The notes beneath the pieces are model-generated. The model did not search any database. It saw only the letters and a list, made by a program, of their open reading frames with translations, and was not told the origin of the DNA. From Gemmatimonadaceae bacterium (lineage in GTDB: Bacteria; Gemmatimonadota; Gemmatimonadetes; Gemmatimonadales; Gemmatimonadaceae), in NCBI GenBank assembly GCA_025453745.1, contig JALOPS010000002.1, positions 1 to 36,207 of the forward strand: DNA of 36,207 nucleotides. Direction: 5' to 3'. Of this stretch, positions 4,527-35,971 are shown in pieces (the first letter of the stretch is position 1; each line of letters starts with the position of its first letter). The translations under genes and the position numbers were made by a program.

Positions 4527-4767
4527 GGGCAACGCGAAGCGCCGCCGGAGTTGTGCGCGGGGGCGCGGTGCTCCCGTGGCGGCGCGCGTGGGTGTCGCTG
4601 CGTGTTGCACCCCCAATGGCAGGCTCCCAACCAGCGCCCTGTGACGGCCCGGTGCGCTGTGAGCCCCCCTCCAGGCCGTGGTGAGTGATCACTCGCGATC
4701 GCGCGAGGCGCGCCGGGACACGCCTCTGCCCATCCGCCCGTCTGCTTGCGGCCCCGCTGCTGGCTTG

Positions 4768-4813
4768 AGTTCCGTTTACCGAATAAACGGAACTACTGGC
4801 GCTCGGTAGTTCC
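4768..4813. promoter_or_regulatory. Three-half-site palindromic operator upstream of Fic gene 1
   Basis: AGTTCCGTTTA (4768-4778) and TAAACGGAACT (4784-4794) are perfect 11-bp inverted arms around 5 bp. The right arm overlaps a second perfect inverted repeat: GGAACTAC (4789-4796) pairs with GTAGTTCC (4806-4813) across 9 bp. So three GTTCC/GGAAC half-sites stand in a row, and two mutually exclusive hairpins are possible. The AT content is unusual for this GC-rich sequence. The remainder of the 318-bp gap 4527-4844 contains no gene; only a perfect 12-bp palindrome (4683-4694) stands out. Confidence 0.65.
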
Positions 4814-4844
4814 ACTTGGCGCCGGTCATGCATGGCGCCCGGCA

Positions 4845-6089
4845 GTGTCCCCGACGCTCCCCTCGAGCGTATCCAATGCCCGGCCGCACCTTCTCGCGCA
4901 TCTGGCCTCGGACCCCACCCGCAACGCCCCGCCGCGTCATCGACGGGCGTGCCGCTACGCCACCTACCTGCCGGACCTGCTCACCACCCTGCCACTTCAG
5001 CTCGACAGCGGACTCGCCGCATTGGTGTCTGAAGCCGAGCGATCGCTCAGGAACTTGAATGACGAGGGAGGACACGCGCGCGCGCCCCTCGCCCGGCTGC
5101 TGCTGCGGACCGAGTCCATCGCGTCATCCAAGCTGGAGGGACTGCAGGCCAGCGTGCGCGACCTCGCCCAGGCGGAAGCGAGCGCGCACTGGGGAATCAC
5201 GCCGGGACCCATCGCGCTTGAAGTGCTCGCAAACATCGAGGCGATGGTGCTGGCGGTGGAGACGACGGCGACGGCCAATCGGTTCGGCGAGATGGAGTTG
5301 CTGTCCATTCATCAACGACTCCTCGAACGCACACCATTGCGGCACATCGCGGATCGACTTCGTACGGGACAGAACTGGATCGGCCGGAACGACGACACAC
5401 CATGCGGCGCCGACTGTGTTCCGCCACCACCCGAGGACCTGCCGCGACTCCTCGTGGACCTCTTTGCGGCGATCAATGACGACGGCCATTCACCACTCGT
5501 GCAGGCAGCGTTGGTGCACGCGCAATTCGAGACGATTCACCCGTTTGATGACGGCAATGGACGCACCGGACGCGCCCTCGTGCATGTGCTGCTCCGGCGC
5601 CGCGGCCTGGCGCCGCGCTTCGTGCCGCCGATCAGCGTCGTCTTTGCCGGCGCACGCGACCAGTACATCTCGGCGCTGACACGTTTCCGGGAAGCAGGAT
5701 CCGACGGTGTGGCGCACTGGCTCGAGCATTTCGCCACGGCGACCCTGCGCGCCGCTCGTCTCGCGCACGACTACGTCCATGCCGTCCGCGCACTCCAGGA
5801 CCGCTGGCGTGTTCGCGTGCGCAATCAGGCACACGTACCGCGGTCGGATGCGGCCGCATGGGCGCTCATCGATCTGCTCCCTGCGCACCCGATGCTCTCT
5901 GCGCAGGTCGCCACGGCCATCACCGAGCGCGCGAAGAGCCGCGTCTACGAGGGGCTGGAACAGCTGGTGACCGCGGGCGTGCTGCTTCCGCTCTCGGCCG
6001 GACAGCGCAACCGGTGGTGGGAAGCAGAGGGGCTGCTCGATCTCATCGCGCGGCTCGAGATCGGGGAGTCTCCGGCAACGGAGGGGTGA
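4845..6089 (+). CDS. Fic-domain protein with C-terminal winged helix (likely AMP-transferase), copy 1
   Basis: A 414-residue Fic enzyme of the COG3177 type. The catalytic loop HPFDDGNGRTGR is complete, with the histidine at residue 232, so nucleotidyl (usually AMP) transfer to a hydroxyl side chain is predicted. The self-inhibitory helix [S/T]xxxE[G/N] is present N-terminal to the core as S94-S-K-L-E98-G, so this is a class II Fic that needs relief of inhibition. The N-terminal YATYLPDLLTTLPLQL segment matches the usual 'YxxFxPxxLP' entry of the family. Residues after ~320 (AWALIDLLPAHPMLSAQVATAI...VYEGLEQLVTAGVLLPL) form a C-terminal winged helix. Start: the frame is open from TTG 4746, but the strong palindrome 4768-4813 lies inside that extension, so GTG 4845 is preferred; no good ribosome-binding site marks either. 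No antitoxin gene is adjacent. The target is unknown; the winged helix may bind the upstream palindrome (inference). Confidence 0.88.
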   Translation: MSPTLPSSVSNARPHLLAHLASDPTRNAPPRHRRACRYATYLPDLLTTLPLQLDSGLAALVSEAERSLRNLNDEGGHARAPLARLLLRTESIASSKLEGLQASVRDLAQAEASAHWGITPGPIALEVLANIEAMVLAVETTATANRFGEMELLSIHQRLLERTPLRHIADRLRTGQNWIGRNDDTPCGADCVPPPPEDLPRLLVDLFAAINDDGHSPLVQAALVHAQFETIHPFDDGNGRTGRALVHVLLRRRGLAPRFVPPISVVFAGARDQYISALTRFREAGSDGVAHWLEHFATATLRAARLAHDYVHAVRALQDRWRVRVRNQAHVPRSDAAAWALIDLLPAHPMLSAQVATAITERAKSRVYEGLEQLVTAGVLLPLSAGQRNRWWEAEGLLDLIARLEIGESPATEG

Positions 6090-6135
6090 CCGCTCGGCCA
6101 CCTCACCGTCCGCGCGCCGGCACCGCCACAGCCAC

Positions 6136-6161
6136 TTAACGCGCCGGGCATCGCGGCGTCT
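6136..6161 (+). promoter_or_regulatory. Candidate ECF-sigma promoter (TTAAC-N16-CGTCT) of the 6221 gene
   Basis: TTAAC at 6136-6140, a 16-nt spacer, CGTCT at 6157-6161, then GCCGGGGAGA. This matches the known ECF layout (AAC-type -35, 16-17 nt, CGTC-type -10). The same elements with the same spacer recur at 7886-7911 ahead of another small exported protein. The coding start lies 60 nt downstream. Confidence 0.6.
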
Positions 6162-6220
6162 GCCGGGGAGAGCGATGCAGCACCTGCCTCGCCGACCGAC
6201 CACTTTCCGGAGTATTCCAC

Positions 6221-6610
6221 ATGCGACCCACGACCCTGCTCTGCGCGGCCCTGGCCGCGCTCTCCCTCGCCGCCACCGCGCAGGCACAGCCGCCGCGCGC
6301 CGGCCGCCCGATCGATCGCGAAGCCGCGCGCGAGCGCATCGCCGAGCGGCGCGCGCAGTGGCAGAACCTCACACCCGAGCAGCGCGAGGCCAAGAAGACG
6401 GAACTCAAGGCGCGCCGCGAAGCGCACCTCGAGAAGCTCGGACCGGCCATGCGCACGTGGGTCGACGCGCGCAACGCGCAGGTGCGGTCGACGGCCGAAC
6501 AGGTGAAGGCGGGCACCCTCACGCGGGAGCAGGCGCGCACCGCGCTGCGCGACTGGATGACCGCCAACCCGCGGCCGGCCAACGCGCGCGCGAACGACGG
6601 CACGCCGTAG
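6221..6610 (+). CDS. Small exported helical protein, Spy/CpxP-like in composition
   Basis: A 129-residue protein starting at an ATG with a GGAG ribosome-binding sequence at 6209-6212. The first ~22 residues are a clear signal peptide (LLCAALAALSLAATAQAQ). The mature part is highly charged and helical: DREAARERIAERRAQWQ, then an LTPEQREAKKTEL stretch, then LTREQARTALRDWM. The 'LTxEQ' start of an Arg/Glu-rich helix recalls LTxxQ-type periplasmic proteins such as Spy and CpxP, which are envelope-stress chaperones, but there is only a loose match and no second canonical motif. It is preceded by a candidate ECF-type promoter, which would suit an envelope-stress function (inference). Its stop codon overlaps the start of the next gene by one base, so the two are translationally coupled. 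Confidence 0.8.
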   Translation: MRPTTLLCAALAALSLAATAQAQPPRAGRPIDREAARERIAERRAQWQNLTPEQREAKKTELKARREAHLEKLGPAMRTWVDARNAQVRSTAEQVKAGTLTREQARTALRDWMTANPRPANARANDGTP

Positions 6611-7875
6611 TGCTGGCGCACGACTCGACGCATCACCGCACCGCGCGACGCTGGCGTCGTGCGGTGTTCGCGTGTGCAGGATTCGCGGCGTGGCCGGTCG
6701 TGACGCACGCCCAGCGCACGCCGCCGGCGACGCTGCGCGATAGCGCCGAGGCACTGCTCGCCGACAGTCTGCTCGATGCGGCACTCGATGGGACGCTGCT
6801 CCTGCCACGTCATCGCGTGAGCGCGCGGGCGACGCTCCGGCAGTACGACTTTGCCGGAGCCCGGGTACAAGAGCAGGCCGCGCCACTCACGTATGCGTTC
6901 GATGGTGCGCGGCTCGCCGTGCGCATCAGCGGCACTCCCGTCGCACTCTCTGCGCCCAGCGGATCATTGAGTGGCGCCTCGCCCGTGCGCGGTCGGATGT
7001 CGCTGCGCGTCGGCGTGGGCGACACCCTCGAGGTGTACGGTCAGACGGCGAGCGCACCGGGTGCGCTCTCGAGCAGCGAGACCGCCGCGCTCGGTGGCAT
7101 CACCACGAGTACGGTCGATCTCGAATCGATCCTCCTCGGCACCACCTCCGCGATGGGTGCGCGCGCCGTCGCCGGGCTGCCCCTCGGTACCACCACACTC
7201 GGCGTGTGGCTGGGCGCGGAAGTACAACCACGTCCGACGGGAGAGACGCCGGTGTTCTGGCGCGGGCGCACGCTCTCGGTCGGTACATCGCTCGCCGGTG
7301 ACCTGGGAGCAGCCCGCATGAGCGCACGCGCCGAATGGTCGCGCAGTTGGGCCGACTCACTCGACGGACGCAATCTCTTTCCCGGAGGCGGCGCCCTCTC
7401 GCTCTCGGCGATGCTCGACGGCCCGATCGGCGACGGCACCACGACCTCCGGGTCGCTCAGCGTGTTCTTCACGCGACCGTTTGCCAACGATCGCGCCGAT
7501 CAGCCCAATCGCCTCACGCCGCAGGGACAGTTCTGGGGCGCAAGCGGCGAGCTGTATGCGTCGCGCGGTCGCGTCGCGTTCATCCCGTCGGTGTCGCTGA
7601 TTCGCGAGTCCAGCACGGTCGCGATCGGCACGCCGCAGCTCCCGGTGCAACTGTCGTCGAGCGCCTGGACCGCGTCGGCCGGCGGCGCGGTGGATCTCTC
7701 GTTGGGGCGCCACCTGTCCGTCACACCCGAAGCGGGCGTCGCCTGGGGGTCGGTGGCGTCCAGCACATCGACCGTCGTGCGCACGCGACGGGGGCGTGCC
7801 GTCACGATTCCGCGAGGCGTCGACGATCCGCTGCGCGGCGCGTGGGTGGGCGTGACGATGACGACGCGCTGGTGA
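6610..7875 (+). CDS. Exported, probably outer-membrane beta-barrel protein
   Basis: A 421-residue protein starting at GTG 6610, whose G is the last base of the preceding TAG stop; this coupling decides the start over much longer open extensions. The N-terminus has a basic n-region (HHRTARRWRR), a hydrophobic core and a THAQ cleavage-like site. The mature region opens with ~40 residues of helical or linker sequence and then consists of alternating Gly/Ser/Thr-rich amphipathic segments (RMSLRVGVGDTLEVYGQT, GTTTLGVWLGAEVQ, GGAVDLSLGRHLSVTPEAGVAWG). It ends in TMTTRW; a C-terminal aromatic residue after alternating residues is the usual BAM recognition signature. I do not recognise a specific family. 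Together with the 6221 gene it forms a two-gene unit behind the candidate ECF promoter. Confidence 0.75.
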   Translation: MLAHDSTHHRTARRWRRAVFACAGFAAWPVVTHAQRTPPATLRDSAEALLADSLLDAALDGTLLLPRHRVSARATLRQYDFAGARVQEQAAPLTYAFDGARLAVRISGTPVALSAPSGSLSGASPVRGRMSLRVGVGDTLEVYGQTASAPGALSSSETAALGGITTSTVDLESILLGTTSAMGARAVAGLPLGTTTLGVWLGAEVQPRPTGETPVFWRGRTLSVGTSLAGDLGAARMSARAEWSRSWADSLDGRNLFPGGGALSLSAMLDGPIGDGTTTSGSLSVFFTRPFANDRADQPNRLTPQGQFWGASGELYASRGRVAFIPSVSLIRESSTVAIGTPQLPVQLSSSAWTASAGGAVDLSLGRHLSVTPEAGVAWGSVASSTSTVVRTRRGRAVTIPRGVDDPLRGAWVGVTMTTRW

Positions 7876-21324: not shown

Positions 21325-23331
21325 CTAGATCTCGGGGATGCCGAGGTCGCGCAGATAGCCGTAGGTCTGATCATAGAGCTGCGGCGATCGCGTACGATCC
21401 GTGGCCTCTCCGGGGGGCACAAAGACGACCATGCCCTGTCGCGCTCGGGTGAGCAGCACACGGTAGGCGTTCAGCAGATAGCGCTGCCGCTCGGGCTTGT
21501 GCATGCGCTCCCAGCGATCGCCGCGAAACGCATGCGGGTGCCACCGCCCGTCCGCGAGGCGCAGATCGGCGTCCCACGTGACGCACGCCCAATCCACCTC
21601 CAATCCCTGCACTTGAAACTCCGTTGCCGCATCCTCCAGGTACCAGGACGCGCGAGTGTCGTCGGGTGGCCCGAGAAACCACTGCACCGGATCGACCGAC
21701 ACGCGCACGTCGATGGCGTGCGGCTTGAGCCGCATCGCCTGCGATGACGCGATCAGTCCGTAGCGCTCGCTGCCGCGTGCGTGTGCGCGCACCCAGCGCT
21801 TCGCAGTGTCGAGGGAGCGGGTGATGGCCAGCGGGTATCGCTCGAGGACCGCGCGAAGATGCACACGCGCCGCATCGTGTTCCAGCGCGAGCACGGCGCG
21901 CACGAATTCGGCAACATGCTGCGCACGAAAGGACCGCATCGACGTCGCGAGATGGAGCGACGGGTCCGGATGACAACGCGCATCGTCGGCGAGTGCCTGC
22001 AGCTCGTCCTGCGCGGCGTACTCCGCGCCAGCCAGATGCGGCGAGAGATGCACCTGCCAGTGCGGGAAACGCTCGCGCATCGCCGTGAGCCACGCACCAA
22101 TGCCGGCCTCGCCGGTGTGGATCTCCTGCCCACCGCCCACCAGGCAGATCACCACGGCCCAGTCGGCGTGGCGATCCATGTAGGAGATGAGGAATTCCGG
22201 CTCGGACTCGTTGAAGTCCGGGCGACCTTTGCGCTGTCGCATGAACAGCGATGTCTTCTCGCGCGTCCACGCGCGTTGGGCCTCGTCGAAGATCACGACA
22301 CGATCGTGCGGTGGCGCGTCGCTCCGACGCAGTCCCTCGTCGCGGAAGTGATGCACGTTCTGGATGAACTGCTTGATGGGCTGCGCGACATCCCCCTTGC
22401 GTCGCTTGATCCCCGCCGCGCCGAGGCGCGAGAGCTCATCGCGCGTCAACGCCTCCCGCAGCACGGCAACGAGCGGTCCGTTGCCGGAGAGAAAGACGGC
22501 ATGCCCCGCGGCGGCGTGATCGCGGCGCGCGGTCGCGATGTCCAGACCAACCAACGTCTTGCCCGCGCCGGGAACACCGGTGACGAAGACGATCGCCTTC
22601 TCGTGTGCGTCGCGCGCGCGGTTGACGAGCTGCTGCACACGCCGCGCCGTGACCGCGAGGTTGGTCGCACCGGCCTCGCTCCGGGTGATGTCGTGCACCG
22701 TGTGTCGCGCATAGAGCGCACGCGCCGCCTGCACGATCGTCGGCGTGGGCTGGTACCCCGCACGTCCCCACGCATCTCCATCAATCGGGGCACCGCCCGC
22801 GCGGGAAGCGGCGGCACGTACCGCGTCGCCAAGCTGTGCCACCGTCACCGCGCGCGGTGGGCGAACGCCGTCTGCCGCCGGGGGCGGCCAGTCGGGTTCG
22901 CCGTCGACCGCACCGGTCGCCACCACCAGCGGGAAGATCGGGGCGTGATGGCTTGCCTGATGGAAATTGCGCAGATCGAGCGCGTAGTCCCACACCTGGT
23001 CGCGATGTGCCGGTGTGACGCGCATCTCCCCCACCTTGAACTCGATGGGGACGATGGCACCACCCGCGATCACCACGGCATCGATCCGCGAGCCCAGCCG
23101 CGGTACATCGAATTCGAAGAAGAGGTGGCCATCCAGCGCCACCAGTGCGTCGCGCAACAGGTCGATCGTCGTGCGCCACGCATCCCGCTGCTGCAACTCG
23201 ACGTCGAACGCGCTCTCCTTGACCAACACGCCGAGCGCCGCATCGCCGTCCGTCGCGAGGAAGCGCGAAATGGATGCCGCGAGGTAGGCGGACGGCCGCG
23301 TGCGGGATCCCTCGATGCGTGGCAAAGACAC
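21325..23331 (-). CDS. PD-(D/E)XK nuclease-like plus DUF2075 helicase-type ATPase
   Basis: A 668-residue two-part protein. GTG 23331 is chosen because the family's conserved N-terminus (AYLAASISRFLA...ALGVL..........QRDAWRTTIDLLRDAL) begins ~15 residues later. Residues ~70-115 look like a PD-(D/E)XK nuclease core: GSRID84AVVIAGGAIVPIE97FK99, followed by QVWDYALDLRNFH. The ATPase follows: Walker A GVPGAGKT at 252-259, Walker B VVIFDEAQ at D349-E350, a GGGQEIHTGEAG loop, and helicase motif VI-like AYRVLLTRARQGMVVFVP near the end, with FQVQGLEVDW ahead of it. DUF2075 (Schlafen group 3-related) ATPases act on nucleic acids; members are often found in phage-defence loci. Here there is no other defence gene nearby except possibly the Fic proteins, so that role is only a possibility. 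The gene ends 58 bp upstream of the permease start. Confidence 0.88.
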   Translation of the reverse strand: MSLPRIEGSRTRPSAYLAASISRFLATDGDAALGVLVKESAFDVELQQRDAWRTTIDLLRDALVALDGHLFFEFDVPRLGSRIDAVVIAGGAIVPIEFKVGEMRVTPAHRDQVWDYALDLRNFHQASHHAPIFPLVVATGAVDGEPDWPPPAADGVRPPRAVTVAQLGDAVRAAASRAGGAPIDGDAWGRAGYQPTPTIVQAARALYARHTVHDITRSEAGATNLAVTARRVQQLVNRARDAHEKAIVFVTGVPGAGKTLVGLDIATARRDHAAAGHAVFLSGNGPLVAVLREALTRDELSRLGAAGIKRRKGDVAQPIKQFIQNVHHFRDEGLRRSDAPPHDRVVIFDEAQRAWTREKTSLFMRQRKGRPDFNESEPEFLISYMDRHADWAVVICLVGGGQEIHTGEAGIGAWLTAMRERFPHWQVHLSPHLAGAEYAAQDELQALADDARCHPDPSLHLATSMRSFRAQHVAEFVRAVLALEHDAARVHLRAVLERYPLAITRSLDTAKRWVRAHARGSERYGLIASSQAMRLKPHAIDVRVSVDPVQWFLGPPDDTRASWYLEDAATEFQVQGLEVDWACVTWDADLRLADGRWHPHAFRGDRWERMHKPERQRYLLNAYRVLLTRARQGMVVFVPPGEATDRTRSPQLYDQTYGYLRDLGIPEI

Positions 23332-23406
23332 CCCGGCAGCTTGCGACCGCCGTGCCGTCCGCACCAGGGGCTCGGTGCCATCCGCTCCGCCCGCTACACT
23401 CCGTGC

Positions 23407-23895
23407 ATGCACCCGCGCGCCACCACGCTGATCGCACAGCTCGACCTCACGCCGCACCCCGAGGGCGGCCACTACCGCGAACTCTATCGCTCACCCGTCA
23501 TGCTCGACCCGGGCGACGGCCGATCGCCCCGCTCGGCGCTCACCGGCATCTATTTCCTGCTGGCCGCCGGTGAGTACAGCGCGTGGCACCGCGTGCGATC
23601 CGACGAGGTCTGGCATGTGTATGAGGGCGATGGCCTCGAACTGCTCATGGCCAGTCCGGATGGCCGGCGGGTGCAGCGGGTCGCCCTCGGCGCCGTCGGC
23701 GCGCAATCCGGCGGCCCGCAGCAACTCGTACCGGCGGGGTGGTGGCAGGCCGCGCGCCCGCTGGGCGGGTACGTCCTCGCCGGATGCAACGTCGCGCCCG
23801 GCTTCGATTTCGCCGACTTCTCCTTTCTTCGCGACGTGCCGGACATGGCCGCCATCATCACGCACCATTCGCCGCACCTCGCCAGCCTGCTCTGA
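23407..23895 (+). CDS. Cupin, DUF985 family
   Basis: A 162-residue protein matching the DUF985 cupin family (YML079w-like) over its full length. It opens with LIAQLDLTPHPEGGHYRELYRS, the family signature, then GIYFLLAAGEYSAWHRVRSDEVWHVYEGDGLELLM, which supplies the first cupin motif, then QQLVPAGWWQAARPLGGYVLAGCNVAPGFDFADFSF for the second. The known structures are double-stranded beta-helix dimers with a ligand pocket; the physiological ligand is unknown. It is cytoplasmic (no signal peptide). The start is ATG 23407, 75 bp from the divergent nuclease-helicase start. The next gene follows after 2 bp, so it forms a two-gene unit with the exported carboxylesterase, although no joint function is evident. 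Confidence 0.92.
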   Translation: MHPRATTLIAQLDLTPHPEGGHYRELYRSPVMLDPGDGRSPRSALTGIYFLLAAGEYSAWHRVRSDEVWHVYEGDGLELLMASPDGRRVQRVALGAVGAQSGGPQQLVPAGWWQAARPLGGYVLAGCNVAPGFDFADFSFLRDVPDMAAIITHHSPHLASLL

Positions 23896-25632: not shown

Positions 25633-26733
25633 ATGCATATGGCCATGACATCCCCGTTCCCTCCCCTCGAGCAGATCGATCCGTCACGATTCGACACTCC
25701 GAGTGTGCTCAAGCGACTCAGTGGAGCCAGCCGGCACTTGGCCGAACTCAAGGGGGTGGTGACGTCGATTCCCAATGAAGCGATGCTGATCAGCACGCTC
25801 ACGCTTCAGGAAGCGAAGGACAGCTCGGCGGTCGAGAACATCATCACCACGCACGACGAGCTGTTTCGCGACGATGCCTCGCCGTCGAGCCAAGTGTCCC
25901 CGGCCGGCAAAGAAGTACTTCGATACCGACAAGCGCTTCGTGTGGGGTGGGAGCAGGTTCGTACCACCGGGCTCATCACCAACAACCACCTGCAGCAGAT
26001 CCAGTCCGTCCTCGAGCTCAATCGCGCGGGGTTCCGCCGTGTGCCCGGCACTGCACTTCGAGAAGAAGGAACCGGCCGCGTCGTGTTCACCCCTCCACAG
26101 GACCACGCATCGATCGTTGCGGCCATGGGTGACCTGGAGCGATTCCTGAACGCCTCTCCAGCGTACCCGGTCGATGCGCTGATCCGCATGGCGCTGGCCC
26201 ACCATCGCTTCGAGACGATCCACCCGTTCTACGATGGCAACGGGCGCACCGGTCGCATTCTCAACGTGCTCTATCTGGTGAAGGAGGGGCTTCTCGATCT
26301 GCCCGTCCTCTACATGAGTCGGCACATCGTGCGTACCAAGAACCGATACTACGCGCTCCTGCAGCTCGTACGCGAAGAAGACCGGTGGGAAGAATGGGTT
26401 GACTACATCCTGGAGGCGGTAGAGGTGACCGCCCGGGAAGGGGTGACCGTGGTGACCGCCATCCGCACTGCGCTCTTCGAGGTGAAGCAACAGATCCGTG
26501 AGCGCCATTCGTTCTACAGCCAGGATCTGATCAACAACCTCTTCTCGCATCCGTACACGAAGGTGCAGTTCGTGCAGGAAGATCTCGGCGTCTCCCGCGT
26601 CACGGCCACCAAGTATCTGAATGCACTGGTCGCCGACGGAATCCTGTCCGTGCAACGGGTTGGCCGCGACAACTACTACTTGAACGTGCGCCTCGTCCAC
26701 ATTCTCACGGGTGACCGCACGCAGTCCGTGTGA
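25633..26733 (+). CDS. Fic-domain protein with C-terminal winged helix (likely AMP-transferase), copy 2
   Basis: A 366-residue Fic enzyme, better preserved than the first copy. The catalytic loop is HPFYDGNGRTGR with His197, preceded by RFETI, and the inhibitory helix is S64-S-A-V-E68-N, again class II. The N-terminal domain (FDTPSVLKRLSGASRHLAELKGVVTSIPN) and AHHRFETIHPF core match COG3177-type proteins. Residues ~300-355 (YTKVQFVQEDLGVSRVTATKYLNALVADGILSVQRVGRDNYYLN) form a canonical winged helix with a clear recognition helix (SRVTATKYLNAL). In-frame ATGs occur at 25633, 25639 and 25645; none has a clear ribosome-binding site. Expected activity is adenylylation of Ser/Thr/Tyr on a cell protein, possibly itself. 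The strong palindromes 12 bp upstream make DNA binding by its own winged helix, and so autoregulation, a reasonable inference. No separate antitoxin is present. Confidence 0.92.
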   Translation: MHMAMTSPFPPLEQIDPSRFDTPSVLKRLSGASRHLAELKGVVTSIPNEAMLISTLTLQEAKDSSAVENIITTHDELFRDDASPSSQVSPAGKEVLRYRQALRVGWEQVRTTGLITNNHLQQIQSVLELNRAGFRRVPGTALREEGTGRVVFTPPQDHASIVAAMGDLERFLNASPAYPVDALIRMALAHHRFETIHPFYDGNGRTGRILNVLYLVKEGLLDLPVLYMSRHIVRTKNRYYALLQLVREEDRWEEWVDYILEAVEVTAREGVTVVTAIRTALFEVKQQIRERHSFYSQDLINNLFSHPYTKVQFVQEDLGVSRVTATKYLNALVADGILSVQRVGRDNYYLNVRLVHILTGDRTQSV

Positions 26734-28163: not shown

Positions 28164-28718
28164 CTACTCGCGCCGTCCGCTTACGATCTGCCCGCGCACC
28201 TCGCCCCCCGGATTCCGCCGCGTGTGCACGTTGAGATACACCGTCCCCGCAGCCATGCGCGTCACCAGCGAGTCCCACGTGAACGGCGCCACCATCGCCA
28301 GCGATGCGCGCGACACACGGTTCTGTCGCAGAATCCCGCCCGCCGCAGGCACCGAGATCGATCCCGTCCCCGGTGCGCGCGCTGCGTCCGTGGGCACGAA
28401 CCACGCCATGATCGGTCCGTTCTGTCCCGCTGGCGCCGCATGAAAGTGCGCCATCGTGATCGAATCGATGCCAGCCACAAAGAGCTCGTACTGAATCGTG
28501 TTCGCATCCTCGAGCACCCACGTCGCCCACCCGCTCGCGGTCGTCGTCACCGCGGGCACCTCCGCTCCACCGGTCAACGTGGCGACGTAGTTGACCTTCC
28601 GCGGTGCCGCGTCCGACAGCACCGCATACGACTCGCTGCACGCCGTCACGGCAATACCACCCATCACGGCGGCCGCGGCCCCACGGCACCAGCGCCGCGC
28701 ATTCATGAAATCACGCAT
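28164..28718 (-). CDS. CHRD-domain lipoprotein
   Basis: A 184-residue protein. ATG 28718 overlaps the SusD stop by 8 nt, indicating translational coupling; ATG 28706 is an alternative. The signal peptide ends in a lipobox (AVTAC), so it is a lipoprotein. The mature part is one CHRD (chordin) domain: YVATLTGGAEVPAVTTTASGWATW, then YELFVAGIDSITMAHFHAAPAGQNGPIMAWF, then TVYLNVHTRRNPGGEVRGQI, the three hallmarks of the fold (the 'GG.E.P', 'A.HiH' and 'YvNvHT..nP.GEiRGq' blocks). CHRD domains occur in many bacterial surface proteins, where their function is mostly undefined. Its place directly after SusC and SusD suggests an accessory surface component of that transport system. Confidence 0.9.
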   Translation of the reverse strand: MRDFMNARRWCRGAAAAVMGGIAVTACSESYAVLSDAAPRKVNYVATLTGGAEVPAVTTTASGWATWVLEDANTIQYELFVAGIDSITMAHFHAAPAGQNGPIMAWFVPTDAARAPGTGSISVPAAGGILRQNRVSRASLAMVAPFTWDSLVTRMAAGTVYLNVHTRRNPGGEVRGQIVSGRRE

Positions 28719-30138
28719 TGCGATCAATGCACCCCGTGAACTTCGGGTTGTTGGTCTCGAGGAAGGACACCGGATAGTTCACATCGGTGCCGTACGTCCC
28801 GCCCTTGTGAAACGCCCCGGTCGGAAACACCGACTCCGCGTCACGGCCGTACTGCCGCACCAGCCGCCGCAGATCCCCCAGGCGATGACCGGTGAGGAAC
28901 ATCCAGTACGCGCGCTCCTTGAAGAGCTGATCCACCTCCCCCGCAGTCGACGCCGGTCGCGCAAGGGCGGGCAACGGCGCGATCGCGGGCGGATTGAAGC
29001 GCGACGGCAAGGCGGGATTGAACAGCAGCGTCGGCAGATTCGCCCGCAGCGTGTTGAGGACGGCGAGGTAGTCGCCGCCCGTGCGCTGTGCCTGCTCCGC
29101 TTCGATGAGGCGTGCCTCCACGCCGTCGGCGAGTACGATGCTCGCCGAGCGTGACGGGTACTTGGTCTGCACGAACATCGGCGTGAGGTTGTCGAGGCCG
29201 ACCGCCGGAAACGCGCCCACGTTGTCGCCACGCGGTGAGAAGACGCGCGGATCGCTCGCCCCGTCGCTCACGTATGGCAACCCGTTGGTCCCTTCCCGAT
29301 TGGCCACCGAGAAGCGCGCGGCGACGCCGGTCGGAATGAACACCCCGTTGTTCTGGCGCCCGGTGTTCTCCGAGTGGATGAGCAGGAAGCGGAAGCCTGT
29401 TGGCACCGCAGTGACGGCGGCCGCTGCCTCCGCAAAGCGACCGAGATCGACGAGCGCGCGTCCCTTCCCCACGCGCGCGAGATTGAGCACGCGTGCCTGG
29501 TCCGCCGACGGCGTCGCCGGCGCGCCCACGAGCGCCAGCGCCGAGTCGAACTTCACAACCGCACGCTGGAAGATCTGTGCGTTGGTGAGCGGCTCGCCCA
29601 GCTCCGAGGTGCCCGCATCGGCATCGAAGCGCGAGAGGGGAATGCCGTTGCAGTACGTCTCGGCGAGCAGCACGTACGTGTAGGCCGCGATCGCCTGGAC
29701 CTCCGCGCGCGCGAGATTCGTCGGCTGCAACGCGGCGTAGCGCTGCTCGACGCGCTCGGCCGTCACTCGCGCGCGCTGCAGCGATTGGTACACGCCGTCG
29801 AGCGTGACGTTGATCGGATTGGTGCTCCGCACGTCCATCTCGAAACGCGTCGGAAAGGTCTCTGCCCAGATGAACTCGTCGGCCAGCAGGCCACCGTTGG
29901 TGATGACGCCGTTTTCGAGCCCGGCGCCCATCGCCACCTGCAGGTCGGAGACTACGGACGCGCGCAGCGTCGGCAGCACGGCCGGATCGTTGAGCGACGA
30001 CGGCGTGGCGACGTCGATGTCGGTCACGGAGAGCAAATCGTCCTTGGTACACGCGGTGGCGGCCAGCAGTGCGACAAGTGCGGCCGCCCGGACGAGTGGG
30101 CGCACGCCGGCGCCCACCACGGGCAAAGTCTGTGTCAT
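28711..30138 (-). CDS. SusD/RagB-family outer-membrane lipoprotein
   Basis: A 475-residue lipoprotein starting at ATG 30138, 14 bp after the SusC stop. The signal peptide (PLVRAAALVALLAATAC) ends in a lipobox with cysteine at about residue 30. The body is helical with TPR-like pairs (RARVTAERVEQRYAALQPTNLARAEVQAIAAYTYVLLAETYCN, VLNLARVGKGRALVDLGRFAEAAAAV), as in SusD, and the C-terminal part has the family's FKERAYWMFLTGHRLGDLRRLVRQYG sequence. SusD proteins cap the SusC barrel and bind the incoming ligand. The nutrient cannot be inferred: there is no polysaccharide-degrading enzyme in this operon, unlike a typical polysaccharide utilisation locus. Together with SusC it forms the ligand-binding half of an outer-membrane importer. 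Confidence 0.9.
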   Translation of the reverse strand: MTQTLPVVGAGVRPLVRAAALVALLAATACTKDDLLSVTDIDVATPSSLNDPAVLPTLRASVVSDLQVAMGAGLENGVITNGGLLADEFIWAETFPTRFEMDVRSTNPINVTLDGVYQSLQRARVTAERVEQRYAALQPTNLARAEVQAIAAYTYVLLAETYCNGIPLSRFDADAGTSELGEPLTNAQIFQRAVVKFDSALALVGAPATPSADQARVLNLARVGKGRALVDLGRFAEAAAAVTAVPTGFRFLLIHSENTGRQNNGVFIPTGVAARFSVANREGTNGLPYVSDGASDPRVFSPRGDNVGAFPAVGLDNLTPMFVQTKYPSRSASIVLADGVEARLIEAEQAQRTGGDYLAVLNTLRANLPTLLFNPALPSRFNPPAIAPLPALARPASTAGEVDQLFKERAYWMFLTGHRLGDLRRLVRQYGRDAESVFPTGAFHKGGTYGTDVNYPVSFLETNNPKFTGCIDRNA

Positions 30139-30152
30139 GATGGCGATCTCGC

Positions 30153-33100
30153 TCAGAAGGTCAGCGTCAGACGCGTGGTCACGCGTCGCACCGGCGGATT
30201 GGTCAGGAAGTCCTGCGTGAGGAAGTTGGCGCCCGTCGCCGTCAGCACTTCGGGATCGAACCCCGTGTAGTTGGTCCAGAGCGCGAGGTTGCGCGCACCC
30301 ACCGTGAACGACGCACCGGCGGCCTTGAGCCGCTGCGCCCAGCGCACGGGCAACGTGTACGTCACTGCCACCTCGGAGAGCCGCACGAAGCTCGCGTCTT
30401 CCGTGTAGCCGTCGCTCGATCCCATCGCACGCGCGGTCGACTTGACCTGCTCGGCGAGCGGCGCATTGCGATCCCAGAAGTCGGGCCCATTCGCAAAACC
30501 GCCGTTGTTCCGGAACTCGCGCGTGTTGTTGTAGATCGTGTTGCCGCCGCGGTAGTTCACCAGCGCGGTGAGCTGCACGCTCTTGAACAGCGTCAGGTTG
30601 CTCGTGAACGCCAGCTCCCGTGTCGGCAACGGCTGCCCGATGTAGTCGAGCGAGTCGGAGAGCACCACTTCGCACCGCGGGCCGCCGACGAGCTGCGGAT
30701 TGGCCAGTCCACCGTACGACGGGCAATTCACGCGCGAGATGATGCCGTCACCGTTGTGATCGGCGTACGACAGGATGCGCCGCTGGAAATACGCGCCCGC
30801 CGGATAGCCCGCGCGGTGGAACTGGTTGCCACCGATGGGGATCGGGGCGATGAGCTGTCCGTCGGCCGAGCCCAGATCCACGATCCGGTTGGTGAACGAC
30901 GTGAAGGTGACGTTCTGCTCGAAGCGGATGCGCGCGTGATCGATGGGCCGGATGGTCAGTGCGCCTTCGAGCCCACGCGTGCGCATGAGCGAGAGATTGA
31001 CGAACTGCGTGCCGGTATTCACGCCCGCCAGCGGACCGGACGTGCCCAGCGACGGCGGCAGTGTGCGCTGGACCAGGAGGTCTCGCGTGTCGCGGTTGAA
31101 TGCGGTGAGCTCGCCGGAGAGCCGCGTGTTGAATGCGGAGAACTCGAACCCACCCTCCGTCTCCGCCGTGATCTCGGGCGCGAGCCGTGCATTGCCCACC
31201 GGACCGCCGATCGAGACGGCGGGCACGTTGGTGGTCTGATCGACGACATTGACCGAGACGGGCGTGAAGAAGGTCTCCGACTGCCGGAAGCCCGGTCGCT
31301 GCCCTGCACGTCCATACGCGGCGCGCATGCGGAACGAGTTGAGCCAGCTCCACTGCGGGAACCACCGCTCCTCGCTCATCACGTACGAGGCAGTGACACT
31401 CGGGTAGTAGGTCCACCCCGCCGCCGAGTTGCCGAATACCGATGCATCGTCGAAGCGCAGCGCGCCGGTGACGAACAGCCGGTCATTGAGTTCGAAGCGC
31501 TGCTCCATGAAGCCGGCCACCGTCACGATCTTCTGGTTCTGCTCGAAGACGGCGAATCGCGCGTTGGCGCCGTTGAGCGAGCTCGTGCCCGGAAGCAGCA
31601 CCGCGCCAGTGGCATCCGAGCGCTGGATGCGCGTGTCCTGATACTGGCCGCCCACGGTCGTGATGGCGCGCACGCGGTCCGTCAGACTGAACGTGCCCGT
31701 CAGCGAGCCGGTCACGGAGAACGTCGGCAGATACGACTTGCCCTGGAAGCGCTGCCCTTCGACGGACGCCTGATTGAGGAACACGCGATTCGGCGGCGTG
31801 AGCGTTTCGTCATCGCGCTGCAGCAGGTCGGCGCCCGTGCGCAGCGACCCCTTGAGCCACGTCGACGGTGTCCAGTTGAGCGTGTTGGCCAGGACGAGAC
31901 GTCGGATGTTCTGGCGCTGCTGCTGCGCGAAGTACTGCGTCACCGGCACGTTGGAGGTCACGTACCCTCGCGAGAGGGAGTCGTTGTTCACCGCGCACTC
32001 GGCGATGACGGCGCGCGTGGCGGGATTGCAGTCGAACGCTCCGCCGAGCAACCCCGCCGAGAGCGTGCCGGCAAAGAGGTTGTCGTTCAGTGGGAGCGCG
32101 CCGTTCGAGTTGAGATAGCCGACATTGACGATGGTCTGCAACGTCGGGAGCAGGGTGGCGCTCAGATTCGCGCGCAGGTTGCGGCGCCGGAGCAGGTTGG
32201 GCGCGAAGATGCCGCGGTCCTGCTCGATGTCGGTGGAGAAGTAGTACTGCACATCCTGACTCCCGCCCGACACGGAGAGTCCATAGCTCTCGTTGCCGCC
32301 GGTGCGGAACGGACTTTCGTTGAGAAACGGCGAATTGCGATAGAGCGTGTCGGGCGTGATGCACGTGCGCAGGACCTGCGCCTCGCGCGAACAGGCGACG
32401 CGCTGCCCCGCCGCGTTGCGCCCGATCTGGCGAACGTTGACGAGGTTGAGCGCGTCGTTCGACAGCCGCCCATCGCTGCTAGAGAGGTCGAGCGGCGTGC
32501 GCTGCTGTCCGAGTTCGCCATAACTCGTCCACCGCGCGCGCCCTGCCTTGCCGCGCTTGGTGGTGATCTGGATGACGCCATTGGCCGCGCCCGTCCCGTA
32601 CAGCGCCGTCGCCGCCGGCCCCTTGATGACCTGGATGTCCTCGATGTCTTCCGGATTCACATCGTCGAAGCGCGAGGTCTGCGCGCCGCCGATGCCGAAC
32701 GTCAGCGACGCCGTGGCGTTGTTGGCAAACACGCCGTCGATGACGAGCAGCGGATCGTTGGCCAGGTTGATCGACGTCACGCCGCGCAGCCGGATGCGGC
32801 TGCCCACGCCGCTCGTCCCCGCGCCCTGCTGCACCACGATGCCCGGCGTTCGTGCCGCCAGCACCTGCGAGAGGTTGGTGACGGTGGCCGCGTTGAACGA
32901 TGTCGAGTCGATGCGGCTGATCGACGCGCCGATCTCACGCTTGCGCTGCTGCTCGCCCGTCGCGGAGACGGTGACTTCGTCGAGATTGGTGGCGGTGGCC
33001 CCGAGCGCGAAGTCGGCGGACGCGCTCCCGCCCGCCGTGATCGTCACCTGTGCGACACCTTGCGTGTAGCCGAGTCGCAGCGCGCGCACCGTGTAGGTGC

Positions 33101-33329
33101 CGGCCGGCACGTTGGTGACGCGGTACGTCCCGTCCGCACCGGAGCGCGCCCCACGGACCGTGCCGACGACCTGTACCTGCACGTCGGCGAGCGCCGCGTT
33201 GCTGCTGCGATCGCGAATCCGACCGCTGATCGTCCCACTCGCACTCTGCGCCTGTACACCGGACATCACCGTACTCACCAGCGCGATGCCCAGTGCACAC
33301 GCGCGACGTGCCGTGCGCATTGCCTGCAT
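30153..33329 (-). CDS. SusC/RagA-family TonB-dependent outer-membrane transporter
   Basis: A 1058-residue outer-membrane receptor. Signal peptide: CALGIALVSTVMSGVQAQ; an in-frame ATG three codons later is an alternative start. Residues ~30-105 form the carboxypeptidase-regulatory-like domain (GTISGRIRDRSSNAALADVQVQVVGT). The plug follows at ~125-240 with the SusC hallmark DVNPEDIEDIQVIKGPAATALYG and NGVIQITTKRGK. The rest is a 22-strand barrel, ending in RVTTRLTLTF with the C-terminal Phe expected by BAM. It imports a ligand delivered by the SusD protein, powered by TonB. No plug motif shows which ligand. It heads the SusC-SusD-CHRD operon and lies 173 bp downstream of the kinase gene. Confidence 0.95.
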   Translation of the reverse strand: MQAMRTARRACALGIALVSTVMSGVQAQSASGTISGRIRDRSSNAALADVQVQVVGTVRGARSGADGTYRVTNVPAGTYTVRALRLGYTQGVAQVTITAGGSASADFALGATATNLDEVTVSATGEQQRKREIGASISRIDSTSFNAATVTNLSQVLAARTPGIVVQQGAGTSGVGSRIRLRGVTSINLANDPLLVIDGVFANNATASLTFGIGGAQTSRFDDVNPEDIEDIQVIKGPAATALYGTGAANGVIQITTKRGKAGRARWTSYGELGQQRTPLDLSSSDGRLSNDALNLVNVRQIGRNAAGQRVACSREAQVLRTCITPDTLYRNSPFLNESPFRTGGNESYGLSVSGGSQDVQYYFSTDIEQDRGIFAPNLLRRRNLRANLSATLLPTLQTIVNVGYLNSNGALPLNDNLFAGTLSAGLLGGAFDCNPATRAVIAECAVNNDSLSRGYVTSNVPVTQYFAQQQRQNIRRLVLANTLNWTPSTWLKGSLRTGADLLQRDDETLTPPNRVFLNQASVEGQRFQGKSYLPTFSVTGSLTGTFSLTDRVRAITTVGGQYQDTRIQRSDATGAVLLPGTSSLNGANARFAVFEQNQKIVTVAGFMEQRFELNDRLFVTGALRFDDASVFGNSAAGWTYYPSVTASYVMSEERWFPQWSWLNSFRMRAAYGRAGQRPGFRQSETFFTPVSVNVVDQTTNVPAVSIGGPVGNARLAPEITAETEGGFEFSAFNTRLSGELTAFNRDTRDLLVQRTLPPSLGTSGPLAGVNTGTQFVNLSLMRTRGLEGALTIRPIDHARIRFEQNVTFTSFTNRIVDLGSADGQLIAPIPIGGNQFHRAGYPAGAYFQRRILSYADHNGDGIISRVNCPSYGGLANPQLVGGPRCEVVLSDSLDYIGQPLPTRELAFTSNLTLFKSVQLTALVNYRGGNTIYNNTREFRNNGGFANGPDFWDRNAPLAEQVKSTARAMGSSDGYTEDASFVRLSEVAVTYTLPVRWAQRLKAAGASFTVGARNLALWTNYTGFDPEVLTATGANFLTQDFLTNPPVRRVTTRLTLTF

Positions 33330-33417
33330 GTCTGCCTCTCACCCGAAGCGTGTGTCGAACGCGACGACCCGGAAGCGGGCCGTGCGCTCGTAGGACGGGT
33401 GGGACCGACTGCGCCCT

Positions 33418-33494
33418 GATCACGGTGTGTCAGAGCGCATCACGGCTGGATCAGCGGCAGCGCGGTGAGATCAGGTGTCCAGTGCTCGTGATCA
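33418..33494. promoter_or_regulatory. Five helically phased GATCA-type repeats upstream of susC
   Basis: GATCA or the variant CATCA begins at 33418, 33438, 33449, 33469 and 33490: steps of 20, 11, 20 and 21 bp. Every copy thus falls on one DNA face. The only gene-free sequence between the kinase stop (33503) and susC (33329) holds all five. A CCGTTCGTC follows directly at 33496-33504. The pattern suggests a multi-site regulator binding region ahead of susC. Confidence 0.55.
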
Positions 33495-33495
33495 A

Positions 33496-33504
33496 CCGTT
33501 CGTC
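33496..33504 (+). promoter_or_regulatory. AlgR/LytTR-type core site CCGTTCGTC
   Basis: CCGTTCGTC is exactly the core box known for the LytTR regulator AlgR of Pseudomonas. It ends at the stop end of the kinase gene and abuts the phased repeats. A copy with one mismatch, CGGTTCGTC, lies at 35041-35049; both copies continue with AC, giving the shared string GTTCGTCAC. Chance occurrence of a nine-mer is not negligible. Confidence 0.4.
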
Positions 33505-35026
33505 ACGCCGCGAGCGCTGGCGCCACCTCGCGCGCGGGAAAATCCACCTCCACCGTGAACCGCTCCGCGTCGTGCACGACGCGCAGCGCGCCATCGCGGC
33601 CGAAGACGGCCTGCACGCGATCGCGCAGATTCGCGAGCCCGACCCCCGTCCCGGCCGTGGGTGCGACCTGCGCGGCGATATCGTTGCTCACGCGCAGTGT
33701 GAGGTGCTCGCGCGTCCGACGCGCGGTGATGGTCACGCGACAGGGCCGCACGCCATGCTTGAGTGCGTTCTCCACCAGCGGCTGCAGCGTCCACGGCAGC
33801 ACACCGGTCTCGCGCAGTGCAGCCGGAACATCCACCTGCACGTCGAGTGCGGCGCCAAAGCGCTCTCGCTCGACGGCGAGATACGCGTCGAGCAGCGCCA
33901 GCTCGCGCGCAAGCGGCACCACCGCCGTGGGCGCAAGCGCGAGACTCTCGCGCAGCAGCTCGCTCAGGCGCAGTGTCGCCGCTTCGGCTCGCGCCGGTGC
34001 GGTGTGCGCGAGTTCGCCGATCGCCGTCAGCGCATTGAACAGGAAGTGTGGGCGCAGATGCTGCTGCAGCGCCTCGAGCCGCGCGGAGAGCAGCGCCGTC
34101 TCCAGCTCGTGCGTGCGCCGCTCGCGCGCCCCGGCCACGAGCGCGGCCACGCCGACGATGCCCAGCAGCAGCGCGATGCCAAGATCGCGCGCCAGGCGAA
34201 GTCGCAACGTCCGCACCGCCGACGCCAGATTGAGCACGCGGAGCGCCACCATCGACGTGCCACTGACGACGGCGCGGGCGCCGATCACTTCGGTACCATC
34301 GAGCGCCGGACCGTACCCCGGCATGTCCTGCCCGTCGACGGCATACGCGACGATCCGCGGCAGCGCCCCGCGTGCAAACGACTGCCCCTGCGTGAAGTAG
34401 CGACCGCCCGGCGCGGTGAGCACATGCACGGAGTCCCGCTCGAGCACGAAGAGCGACGTCTGCGCCACGTCGCCCTGCGAGTTGGGGACGATCATGATGC
34501 GCCCCATCAATCGATCGGACGGCTGAATCCATGCCACGATCTCGCGACCCGCCGATGCCGGATCGGCTGCACCAACCACGAGCAGACACGCCGTATCCGT
34601 CGACACCGTCGTGGTGCCACCCGGTTGCACGCCACCATCGGGCAAGTCGCGCGCATCGACGTCGAGCAGCAGGCGACCACGCGCGTCCCGCACCCGCAAT
34701 GCGACGAACTCGCTCTCCGCGAGCAGTCGCGCGCGTTCCGTACTGTCGACCATGCGGCCGATCAGGAGAGTGCCAAGCCACGCCGCGTCGCGCCGCGCCA
34801 GCGCCAGTCGGGCCTCCACCATCCCCGCCTGCGTGCGCACCGTCGACGCGACCGGACGCGCGTAGAACTCTGCCGTCTCCGCCGACACCCCGGCCAGCCG
34901 CCAGAGAATGAAGGCGATGACTGCGGCAATGAGGACCCACGGGAGCAGCCGCCCCGCACGCGCGAAGGGGTGCTCGCGCACGCCCTGCCCCCGTGCTCCT
35001 CCCGTTACCCGCGCTGCAAACGACAT
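33503..35026 (-). CDS. LytS-type sensor histidine kinase (His_kinase family)
   Basis: A 507-residue membrane kinase. ATG 35026 is preferred because a GAGGAG ribosome-binding sequence lies just upstream. Architecture: a first transmembrane helix at ~28-45 (LLPWVLIAAVIAFILW), a large extracytoplasmic sensor region (~46-265), a second transmembrane segment (LARDLGIALLLGIVGVAALVAGA), then the catalytic part. The phospho-acceptor block LRPHFLFNAL has its His at residue 327, characteristic of the His_kinase (LytS/YehU) family, and the ATP-binding part contains LQPLVENALKHG (N box) and GTGVGLANLRDR (G box). It should autophosphorylate on sensing an envelope signal and pass the phosphate to the divergent LytTR regulator; the ligand is unknown. 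Downstream on the same strand lies the SusCD operon. Confidence 0.93.
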   Translation of the reverse strand: MSFAARVTGGARGQGVREHPFARAGRLLPWVLIAAVIAFILWRLAGVSAETAEFYARPVASTVRTQAGMVEARLALARRDAAWLGTLLIGRMVDSTERARLLAESEFVALRVRDARGRLLLDVDARDLPDGGVQPGGTTTVSTDTACLLVVGAADPASAGREIVAWIQPSDRLMGRIMIVPNSQGDVAQTSLFVLERDSVHVLTAPGGRYFTQGQSFARGALPRIVAYAVDGQDMPGYGPALDGTEVIGARAVVSGTSMVALRVLNLASAVRTLRLRLARDLGIALLLGIVGVAALVAGARERRTHELETALLSARLEALQQHLRPHFLFNALTAIGELAHTAPARAEAATLRLSELLRESLALAPTAVVPLARELALLDAYLAVERERFGAALDVQVDVPAALRETGVLPWTLQPLVENALKHGVRPCRVTITARRTREHLTLRVSNDIAAQVAPTAGTGVGLANLRDRVQAVFGRDGALRVVHDAERFTVEVDFPAREVAPALAA

Positions 35027-35040
35027 ATCACTCCTCACTG

Positions 35041-35049
35041 CGGTTCGTC
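35041..35049 (+). promoter_or_regulatory. LytTR-type site CGGTTCGTC in the kinase/regulator intergenic region
   Basis: CGGTTCGTC differs at one base from the AlgR-type core and from the site at 33496, and like it continues AC. It lies in the 117-bp gap between the divergent kinase and regulator genes, so autoregulation is possible. A weaker resemblance (CGACTCGTC) occurs at 35067-35075. Confidence 0.35.
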
Positions 35050-35143
35050 ACTGGCCCCCATGACGACGACTCGTCCCTGCGCCAGCATTCGCCTCGGCGA
35101 TGTCGTGACTACGACCCGCCGCGCGCATCCTAACGTGTCACTC

Positions 35144-35971
35144 ATGACCACTGCAGAGGCCGAACTCCCCGTCGCGACGCCCGTCGCCAGCGCTGCCGAC
35201 ACCGGCGCCGCGTCGACGCGGCCGCTCCGCGCCCTCCTCGTCGACGACGAGGAAGCCGCCCTGCGCCGGCTGCGGCGCCTGCTCGGCACCGATCCCCGGG
35301 TGACGATCGTGGGCGAAGCCAGTGACGGGCCGTCCGCGCTCGCGCGGCTCGAGGCGGGCGACGTCGATGTGCTCTTCCTCGACATCCAGATGCCGGGCAT
35401 GTCCGGGCTCGATGTCGCGCGCCAGCTCCCGCGCGAGCGGGCGGTGCGCATCGTCTTCGTGACCGCACACGACGAGCACGCCATCAATGCATTCGAGCTC
35501 TCCGCGCTCGACTACCTGCTCAAGCCGGTCAACCCCGAACGCCTGGCCGACTCGGTTCGTCGGCTCGCCGAGTCGCTCGATCGTCTGCAGCCCGCCGCAC
35601 GTCTGACTGCCGCCCTCGACACCGCTGCCGCCGCACCACTGCAGCGCGTCCTCGTCCCCGATGGCAAGGGCCAGCGCCTGGTCGACATGACACAGGTGCA
35701 CCTCATCTCGGCGTACGGCAACTATGTGAAGCTGCACGTCGGAGCGGACACGCTGCTCTATCGCCAGACCATGCAGCGCATGGAAGCGGCCCTCGACCGG
35801 CGGGACTTCGCGCGCATCCATCGCGGCGCGATCGTGAACGTGCGATTCATCGCCAACGTCGCACCGTACGTGGCGGGAGATCACATCGTGACGCTCAAGG
35901 GTGGCGCGCGCGTGCGGTTGTCCCGGCACTATCGCGACGCGTTCTTCGATCGGTTCAGCCCGAATAGCTGA
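35144..35971 (+). CDS. LytTR-family response regulator
   Basis: A 275-residue two-domain regulator starting at ATG 35144 (ATG 35060 in frame is possible). The receiver domain (~25-145) has the acidic pair in LLVDDEEAALRRL, the phospho-acceptor Asp80 in LFLDIQMPG, Thr in FVTAHDEHAI, and Lys in LLKPVNPERL. A Gln/Ala-rich linker precedes the LytTR DNA-binding domain (~170-272: VDMTQVHLISAYGNYVKLHVG, LYRQTMQRMEAALDRRDFARIHRGAIVNVRFI, LKGGARVRLSRHYRDAFFDRF). LytTR domains bind ~9-bp direct repeats usually about two turns apart. It is the partner of the divergent LytS-type kinase. Candidate targets are the GTTCGTCAC sites at 33496 and 35041 and the phased repeats ahead of susC (inference). Confidence 0.95.
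   Translation: MTTAEAELPVATPVASAADTGAASTRPLRALLVDDEEAALRRLRRLLGTDPRVTIVGEASDGPSALARLEAGDVDVLFLDIQMPGMSGLDVARQLPRERAVRIVFVTAHDEHAINAFELSALDYLLKPVNPERLADSVRRLAESLDRLQPAARLTAALDTAAAAPLQRVLVPDGKGQRLVDMTQVHLISAYGNYVKLHVGADTLLYRQTMQRMEAALDRRDFARIHRGAIVNVRFIANVAPYVAGDHIVTLKGGARVRLSRHYRDAFFDRFSPNS

Follow-up and report, generated by a model that had tools for sequence, protein, structure and literature searches.

A LytTR response regulator and a PF06580-class histidine kinase are encoded beside a SusCD operon in a Gemmatimonadaceae genome. Near-perfect matches to a LytTR operator motif of this family stand in both of the short gaps that flank the kinase gene. Judging by its position, one of these matches (box B) probably serves autoregulation by the LytTR regulator, and control of susC through the other (box A) is plausible. 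We rate the reading as a whole, a sensor–regulator pair that governs itself and also acts on susC through box A, at roughly even chances. The operator motif, derived from LytTR loci elsewhere in the family, is a by-product of the analysis and of more use.

The kinase, the regulator and the susC operon

On the minus strand of the window (the whole stretch of DNA analysed, 36,207 nucleotides), the histidine kinase gene is followed by a 173-bp gap, susC, a susD-like gene and a CHRD gene. The LytTR regulator gene lies on the plus strand, divergent from the kinase gene.

28164..28727, minus strand: gene for a CHRD-domain protein (PF07452, 96 bits; synteny)
28711..30138, minus strand: susD-like lipoprotein gene, named from homology and position
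30153..33329, minus strand: susC, SusC/RagA TonB-linked outer-membrane protein (TIGR04056, 433 bits, cut-off 368)
33330..33502, minus strand: gap between the kinase stop and the susC start, 173 bp
33503..35026, minus strand: histidine kinase, PF06580 class (66.9 bits), with two transmembrane-like stretches
35144..35971, plus strand: response regulator of 275 aa with a receiver domain (PF00072, 91.7 bits) and a LytTR DNA-binding domain (PF04397, 62.3 bits), both above cut-off

The regulator was positioned in part by its Pfam matches, the codon-based gene caller having put the gene on the opposite strand. The kinase start was set at the ATG at 35026, behind GAGGAG, and not at the GTG at 35038. 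The source genome is incomplete (4.70 Mb in 521 contigs, completeness 81%), and the 179 genomes searched in the family include no second genome of its genus. Plasmid matches to Gemmatirosa point to the Gemmatimonas family. Elsewhere in the window lie two Fic/DOC-family genes (4746–6089 and 25639–26733, both on the plus strand; PF02661, 71 and 60 bits), the latter with a SoFic-like C-terminal domain, and a gene for a Schlafen group 3 helicase-domain protein (21325–23472, minus strand; PF09848, 264 bits).

By passing both the receiver and the LytTR cut-offs, the regulator shows the domain layout of a LytTR response regulator. It is about 38–44% identical to the regulators of its own family, and profile searches of solved structures returned receiver domains plus one LytTR-domain chain. 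The best NCBIfam matches are BtsR/YehT (144 bits) and LytR (112.6 bits), which have the same domain layout; neither score reaches its curated cut-off (246 and 375), which excludes the regulator from both families. In the alignment its LytTR domain carries FARIHRG, where glycine replaces the last serine of FhRhHRS, a motif of the LytTR domain given in PMC4227749.

The kinase had been labeled LytS in the initial annotation. The PF06580 domain bears out the class. The 5TM-Lyt sensor domain, which is the mark of LytS sensor kinases proper, was not found in a Pfam search, in which only PF06580 passes its cut-off. ‘LytS’ is therefore an imprecise name here and a mere class label. Hydropathy peaks at residues 27–45 and 282–300, and the structure model is poor (mean pLDDT 47, sensor domain below 50). 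A kinase of this class with a LytTR regulator recalls AlgZ/FimS–AlgR of Pseudomonas aeruginosa, AlgZ belonging to the PF06580 class. The likeness is one of box and class: the AlgR core CCGTTCGTC equals the first nine bases of box A. Unlike in that system, the proposed target in the window is a SusCD operon.

SusC passes both TIGR04056 and the signature model TIGR04057 (50.8 against a cut-off of 46.2). The product of the following gene has no match to the SusD Pfam model at E ≤ 1 and no other Pfam match above cut-off; it is about 47% identical to a neighbor in another LytTR locus (L153) that passes PF07980 (26.8 against 23.1), and it is SusD-like by homology only. A SusC/RagA receptor gene followed by a SusD-like gene is also the arrangement of Bacteroidota SusCD operons. 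Those operons are usually under ECF/anti-sigma, hybrid or SusR-type regulators, whereas a LytTR two-component pair adjoins the operon in the window.

SusC orthologues about 78% identical occur in three genomes. The susC–susD–CHRD order is kept in two of them (G056 and G063), and susC stands alone within the available piece of the third (G053). The source genome holds a second susC–susD–CHRD copy, again about 78% identical, split across the ends of contigs C223 and C430 (L073/L192, 1–1568, and L074); the contig break inside this susC copy suggests near-repeats in the assembly. The kinase and regulator are absent from the DNA examined around the three orthologues and the second copy, and the TGATC array described below is absent from the 450–600 bp before susC in all of them. 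The upstream region is thus private to the window locus. SusC residues 110–500 are 77–90% identical to these copies and residues 1–33 just 27–30%. A private upstream region fits a regulator-specific operator, and it equally fits neutral difference.

No orthologue of the kinase–regulator pair was found beside susC in the 179 family genomes. Absence of the repeats at orthologous loci, which the initial annotation named as a refutation, does not strictly apply here: the susC orthologues without the repeats are without the pair as well. The only near-full-length kinase relative outside the source genome (G033, 32% identity over residues 21–494) adjoins a regulator, and susC was not seen within 9 kb around it. 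The genome-contig scan also returned two distant loci from other phyla, which were left out.

The LytTR operator motif and its matches in the window

The motif C[CG][GA]TTCGTC[CA], as direct repeats 20–22 bp apart, comes from 39 groups of LytTR loci elsewhere in the family. The training set comprised the noncoding DNA around the 40 best regulator matches, together with source-genome loci and a few others. Segments within 2.6 kb of a regulator were classed as near and those beyond as far. The window was excluded from training and rates, and one further locus (L169) from the first repeated-pair training; segments shorter than 45 bp were dropped in the motif work and those shorter than 25 bp in the enrichment table. 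The repeated-pair model used a spacing of 20–22 bp and had a maximum single-site score of 14.80.

In fivefold cross-validation, held-out pairs scoring at least 16 were found in 13 of 152 near and 0 of 183 far noncoding segments; five other spacing classes gave 0–3 of 152 and 0–2 of 183. With the motif fixed, 40 new loci yielded such pairs in 7 of 124 near segments and 1 of 162 far ones (Fisher p 0.023), and other spacings gave 0–3 near and also 0–3 far. This replication, weaker than the training result, is genuine but modest. The seed was picked with knowledge of the AlgR box, thresholds were set after the training scores, and the gene calls were home-made. From 60 random starts, 13 of the 14 best distinct motifs hold a shifted or variant TTCGTC or TCGTC; of four typed seeds, the TGATC-like ACCTGATCAC failed to converge on the motif.

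TTCGTC occurs 47 times near (35.6 kb) and 25 times far (37.2 kb) with regulator genes masked. TTCGTC-type words are not among the top enriched single k-mers of length 6–9, and neither CGTTCGTC (8 near, 6 far) nor GTTCGTCA (2 near, 5 far) is enriched alone; the signal lies in pairs and spacing. Near LytTR genes, 21-bp direct repeats are overrepresented regardless of sequence, and multiples of three are raised in both sets, reflecting residual coding DNA. Another word, TTCGTCAC, was dropped as a near-LytTR signal: its matches are coding sequence of the receiver motif FVTA. Codon-based gene calling lowered the enrichment near LytTR genes and left it in place for TTCGTC. Exact TTCGTC pairs occur at nine places in the source genome, eight in called genes and the ninth in an open reading frame, so genome-wide counts of them are uninformative.

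Spacing of this order is known from other LytTR proteins. According to PMC11347149, the LytTR operators of RcoM1 and CoxC consist of three direct repeats about two turns (18–21 bp) apart. Triples in three family loci (L144, L153 and L165) and sites 1–3 of the array in the window have this geometry. RcoM1 and CoxC differ in being one-component sensors, with the repeat TTCNNGCA or TTNNNGCN.

Four sites in or beside the two gaps concern us here.

33353..33362, minus strand: box D, GCGTTCGACA, weak, sense to susC, score 7.92
33496..33505, plus strand: box A, CCGTTCGTCA, antisense to susC and overlapping the kinase stop codon (33503–33505), score 14.44 of 14.80
35041..35050, plus strand: box B, CGGTTCGTCA, between the divergent kinase and regulator genes and sense to the latter, score 13.73
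35067..35076, plus strand: box C, CGACTCGTCC, score 10.65

AlgR-like boxes had been reported here from the letters alone, and they are borne out: the exact CCGTTCGTC lies beside the array at 33496–33504 and a one-mismatch copy, CGGTTCGTC, in the kinase/regulator gap at 35041–35049. The motif learned without the window is nearly the same sequence, and boxes A and B match it almost perfectly. The exact 9-mer occurs twice in the window against 0.76 expected, and with at most one mismatch 25 times against 21.3, one of them inside the regulator gene (35553), so the 9-mer is not enriched. Four sites in the 36 kb score at least 13.5 (at 9408, 31803 inside susC, 33496 and 35041), and one of these falls in each of the gaps beside the kinase gene. 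Finding two of them within 0.29 kb has a p of about 3e-5 by the distant noncoding rate and 5e-4 by the window’s own rate.

Boxes A and B both lack a good partner at 20–22 bp. The best pairs score 10.6 in the susC gap, below every threshold used, and 5.9; box C lies 26 bp from box B, against the usual 20–22. The usual LytTR operator has at least two direct repeats of about 9 bp spaced about 20–22 bp apart, and the strong boxes here are single. According to PMC4064291, AlgR boxes are not necessarily paired and occur in either orientation, so single boxes in the window are not fatal to the reading. Box A is 166 bp before susC, at the far end of the kinase gene. It forms a 90% inverted pair with box D (inverted repeat I1), and CGTTCGTCAC (33352–33361, minus strand) and CGTTCGACAC (33497–33506, plus strand) are an inverted pair spanning the susC gap. 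The same two variants, TTCGTCACT and TTCGACACT, make up a 21-bp direct repeat before susC in L144 (2745–2775). In two of the new loci (L202 and L206), CCGTTCGTCA, the exact sequence of box A, shortly precedes the regulator gene in sense orientation.

From the computed genes, boxes, family motif and spacing we infer the following mechanism. The PF06580-class membrane kinase would signal by phosphotransfer to the LytTR response regulator, which would bind C[CG][GA]TTCGTC[CA]-type boxes. Box B, with box C, in the divergent gap would provide autoregulation, and through box A the same regulator would act on the susC–susD–CHRD operon. The phased TGATC sites might assist box A, in which case they would be diverged LytTR sites. 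Activation is the usual LytTR mode and would be the expected direction. The initial annotation held that the regulator controls both its own kinase and susC. With a family-type box in the divergent gap, the first half is likely; the second is plausible and would depend on one antisense box without a partner.

susC genes beside LytTR regulators in other genomes

The family has many SusC/SusD uptake genes and many LytTR regulators. Among the 40 best regulator matches taken with their flanks, susC adjoins regulator–kinase genes in three (L144, L153 and L161). Two further LytTR–susC cases, L189 and L190, come from loci chosen because both matches lay close. A LytTR profile run on 42 susC loci found the domain in the flanks of two, L061 (the same place as L153) and L065. 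In five genomes (G000, G043, G044, G045 and G149), a SusC match lies within 3 kb for 2 of 31 LytTR domains, against about 1.0 expected, the expectation being a hand estimate from SusC counts. The association is recurrent and, on present counts, about at the chance level; it is uncommon, not unique. Calling LytTR an unusual regulator type for such operons, as had been done, is upheld only mildly, as LytTR genes adjoin susC in several other family genomes. A listing-level search of the literature on LytTR with Gemmatimonas, SusCD and TonB-dependent receptors found no paper on LytTR control in the Gemmatimonas family.

Six upstream regions of LytTR-adjacent susC genes were scored for operator pairs. 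L144 and L189 have them, L190 scores 15.4 (a second pair, farther from susC, scores 20.8 if the penalty term is left off), and L153 (7.8), L161 (4.3) and the susC upstream region in the window are without. L144 has three boxes, at 177, 157 and 136 bp before susC, and L189 two, at 171 and 150 bp. In L153 a further LytTR-domain gene lies between the kinase–regulator pair and susCD (5831–6949, 7177–7357), and a three-box operator with spacings of 20 and 21 bp precedes that gene.

The wider scoring of susC upstream DNA covered 28 of 30 loci (L052 and L068 had no upstream DNA), 27 of them with more than 200 bp. Pairs scoring at least 16 were present in 2 of these 27, L057 (G116, 23.1) and L069 (G157, 21.1). 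Both have these strong pairs though no LytTR domain lies in the flanks examined, and regulation in trans is possible there.

These comparisons bear on the main reading in both directions. The pairs in L144 and L189, 21 bp apart and about 136–177 bp before susC, count for it, as do array sites 1–3 at 118–159 bp. Counting against it are the unpaired boxes A and B, the missing pairs in L153 and L161, the pairs without LytTR in L057 and L069, and proximity at the chance level. A narrower account limits the regulator to autoregulation: box B (and C) would be its own operator, box A a chance match in the kinase end, and susC would have a different promoter or be reached by transcripts reading through from the kinase gene. 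Box A runs antisense to susC, is unpaired and overlaps the kinase coding region; sites resembling the boxes recur ahead of the regulator gene, in its sense orientation, in L202 and L206; and LytTR–susC proximity in the five genomes is about what chance would give. Yet two of the four high-scoring window sites sit in the two short gaps, and L144, L189 and L190 have operator pairs between LytTR genes and susC. We regard autoregulation alone as a serious, if clearly less probable, explanation.

The phased TGATC array

The kinase–susC gap and its edge also hold a series of short repeats.

33489..33498, minus strand: array site 1, CGGTTGATCA, core GATCA on the plus strand at 33490–33494, motif score 6.89
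33468..33477, minus strand: array site 2, CACCTGATCT, motif score -4.2
33448..33457, minus strand: array site 3, CCGCTGATCC, motif score 4.15
33438..33442, plus strand: array site 4, CATCA (TGATG on the minus strand), motif score below 0
33418..33422, plus strand: array site 5, GATCA, motif score below 0
33411..33438, minus strand: potential RNA stem GCGCTCTGA-N10-TCAGGGCGC from folding the gap RNA; it overlaps sites 4 and 5 of the array

Five phased repeats between kinase and susC had been noted, and the coordinates hold, with four GATCA and one CATCA. On the plus strand GATCA starts at 33418, 33449, 33469 and 33490 and CATCA at 33438. The spacings of 20, 11, 20 and 21 bp place all of them near one helical face. 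A direct repeat of ATCACGG, 20 bp apart, joins sites 4 and 5. None of 2000 dinucleotide shuffles matched the phased chain. Of 2000 real 173-bp tiles taken from 46 further loci of the family, 18 did; among 295 noncoding tiles the count was 6 raw and 3 with k-mer rarity weighting (tiles from segments below 120 bp were left out). The phasing is unusual, not extreme.

The proposal that these repeats are the regulator’s sites lacks support in that form. The spacing is right; the core is wrong and the motif scores are low. On the LytTR motif, 64 of 1000 shuffles equal the best array triple, as do 18 of 294 far strand-tiles, so the triple is not significant, and TGATC is no denser near LytTR genes (1.82 per kb) than elsewhere (1.75). 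The TGATC pair pattern occurs at 109 places in the source genome, so it is uninformative. What the array shares with LytTR operators is spacing and place: sites 1–3 lie 159, 138 and 118 bp before susC, 21 and 20 bp apart. TCATC, one step from TGATC, is present in the L144 boxes. It is possible, though nothing in the data demands it, that the array is a part of the operator that has diverged.

Chance, with the array non-functional, has a minority share of our belief. Equal or better chains turn up in the real tiles, mixed and noncoding, and the array is known from one locus; against this, no shuffle was as good, and the spacing is that of LytTR operators elsewhere in the family. It is improbable that a different, unlinked transcription factor binds the array on one DNA face as its operator, with the kinase–regulator pair a chance neighbor of susC. 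TGATC departs from the core of the LytTR motif and shows no enrichment near LytTR genes, and the phasing beats all but 3–6 of the 295 noncoding tiles. The array is missing, however, from the susC orthologues and the second source-genome copy, so that if it serves susC it came with the window locus, and no further regulator is encoded between kinase and susC. Least probable of all is that the repeats form RNA hairpins in one kinase–susC transcript, affecting mRNA stability or translation: the 173-nt gap RNA folds better than shuffles (z = -2.66; 3 of 200 as good) and one stem uses sites 4 and 5, but a terminator scan gave no match, no Rfam family is found in the window, and the 20–21 bp spacing is left unexplained. 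A scan for sigma-70 promoters also gave no match.

Returning to the sensor–regulator reading, a broader extension of it is possible, and we hold it only tentatively. Gemmatimonas-type bacteria might use one common LytTR operator code, C[CG][GA]TTCGTC[CA] repeats 20–21 bp apart, at the regulators’ own promoters and at some SusCD operons. Here susCD would be under such a pair, its operator composed of a strong box and of sites in which the core TCGTC had drifted to TGATC. Because the predicted operator has a defined sequence and a fixed spacing, the regulons of the family’s LytTR proteins can be tested directly.
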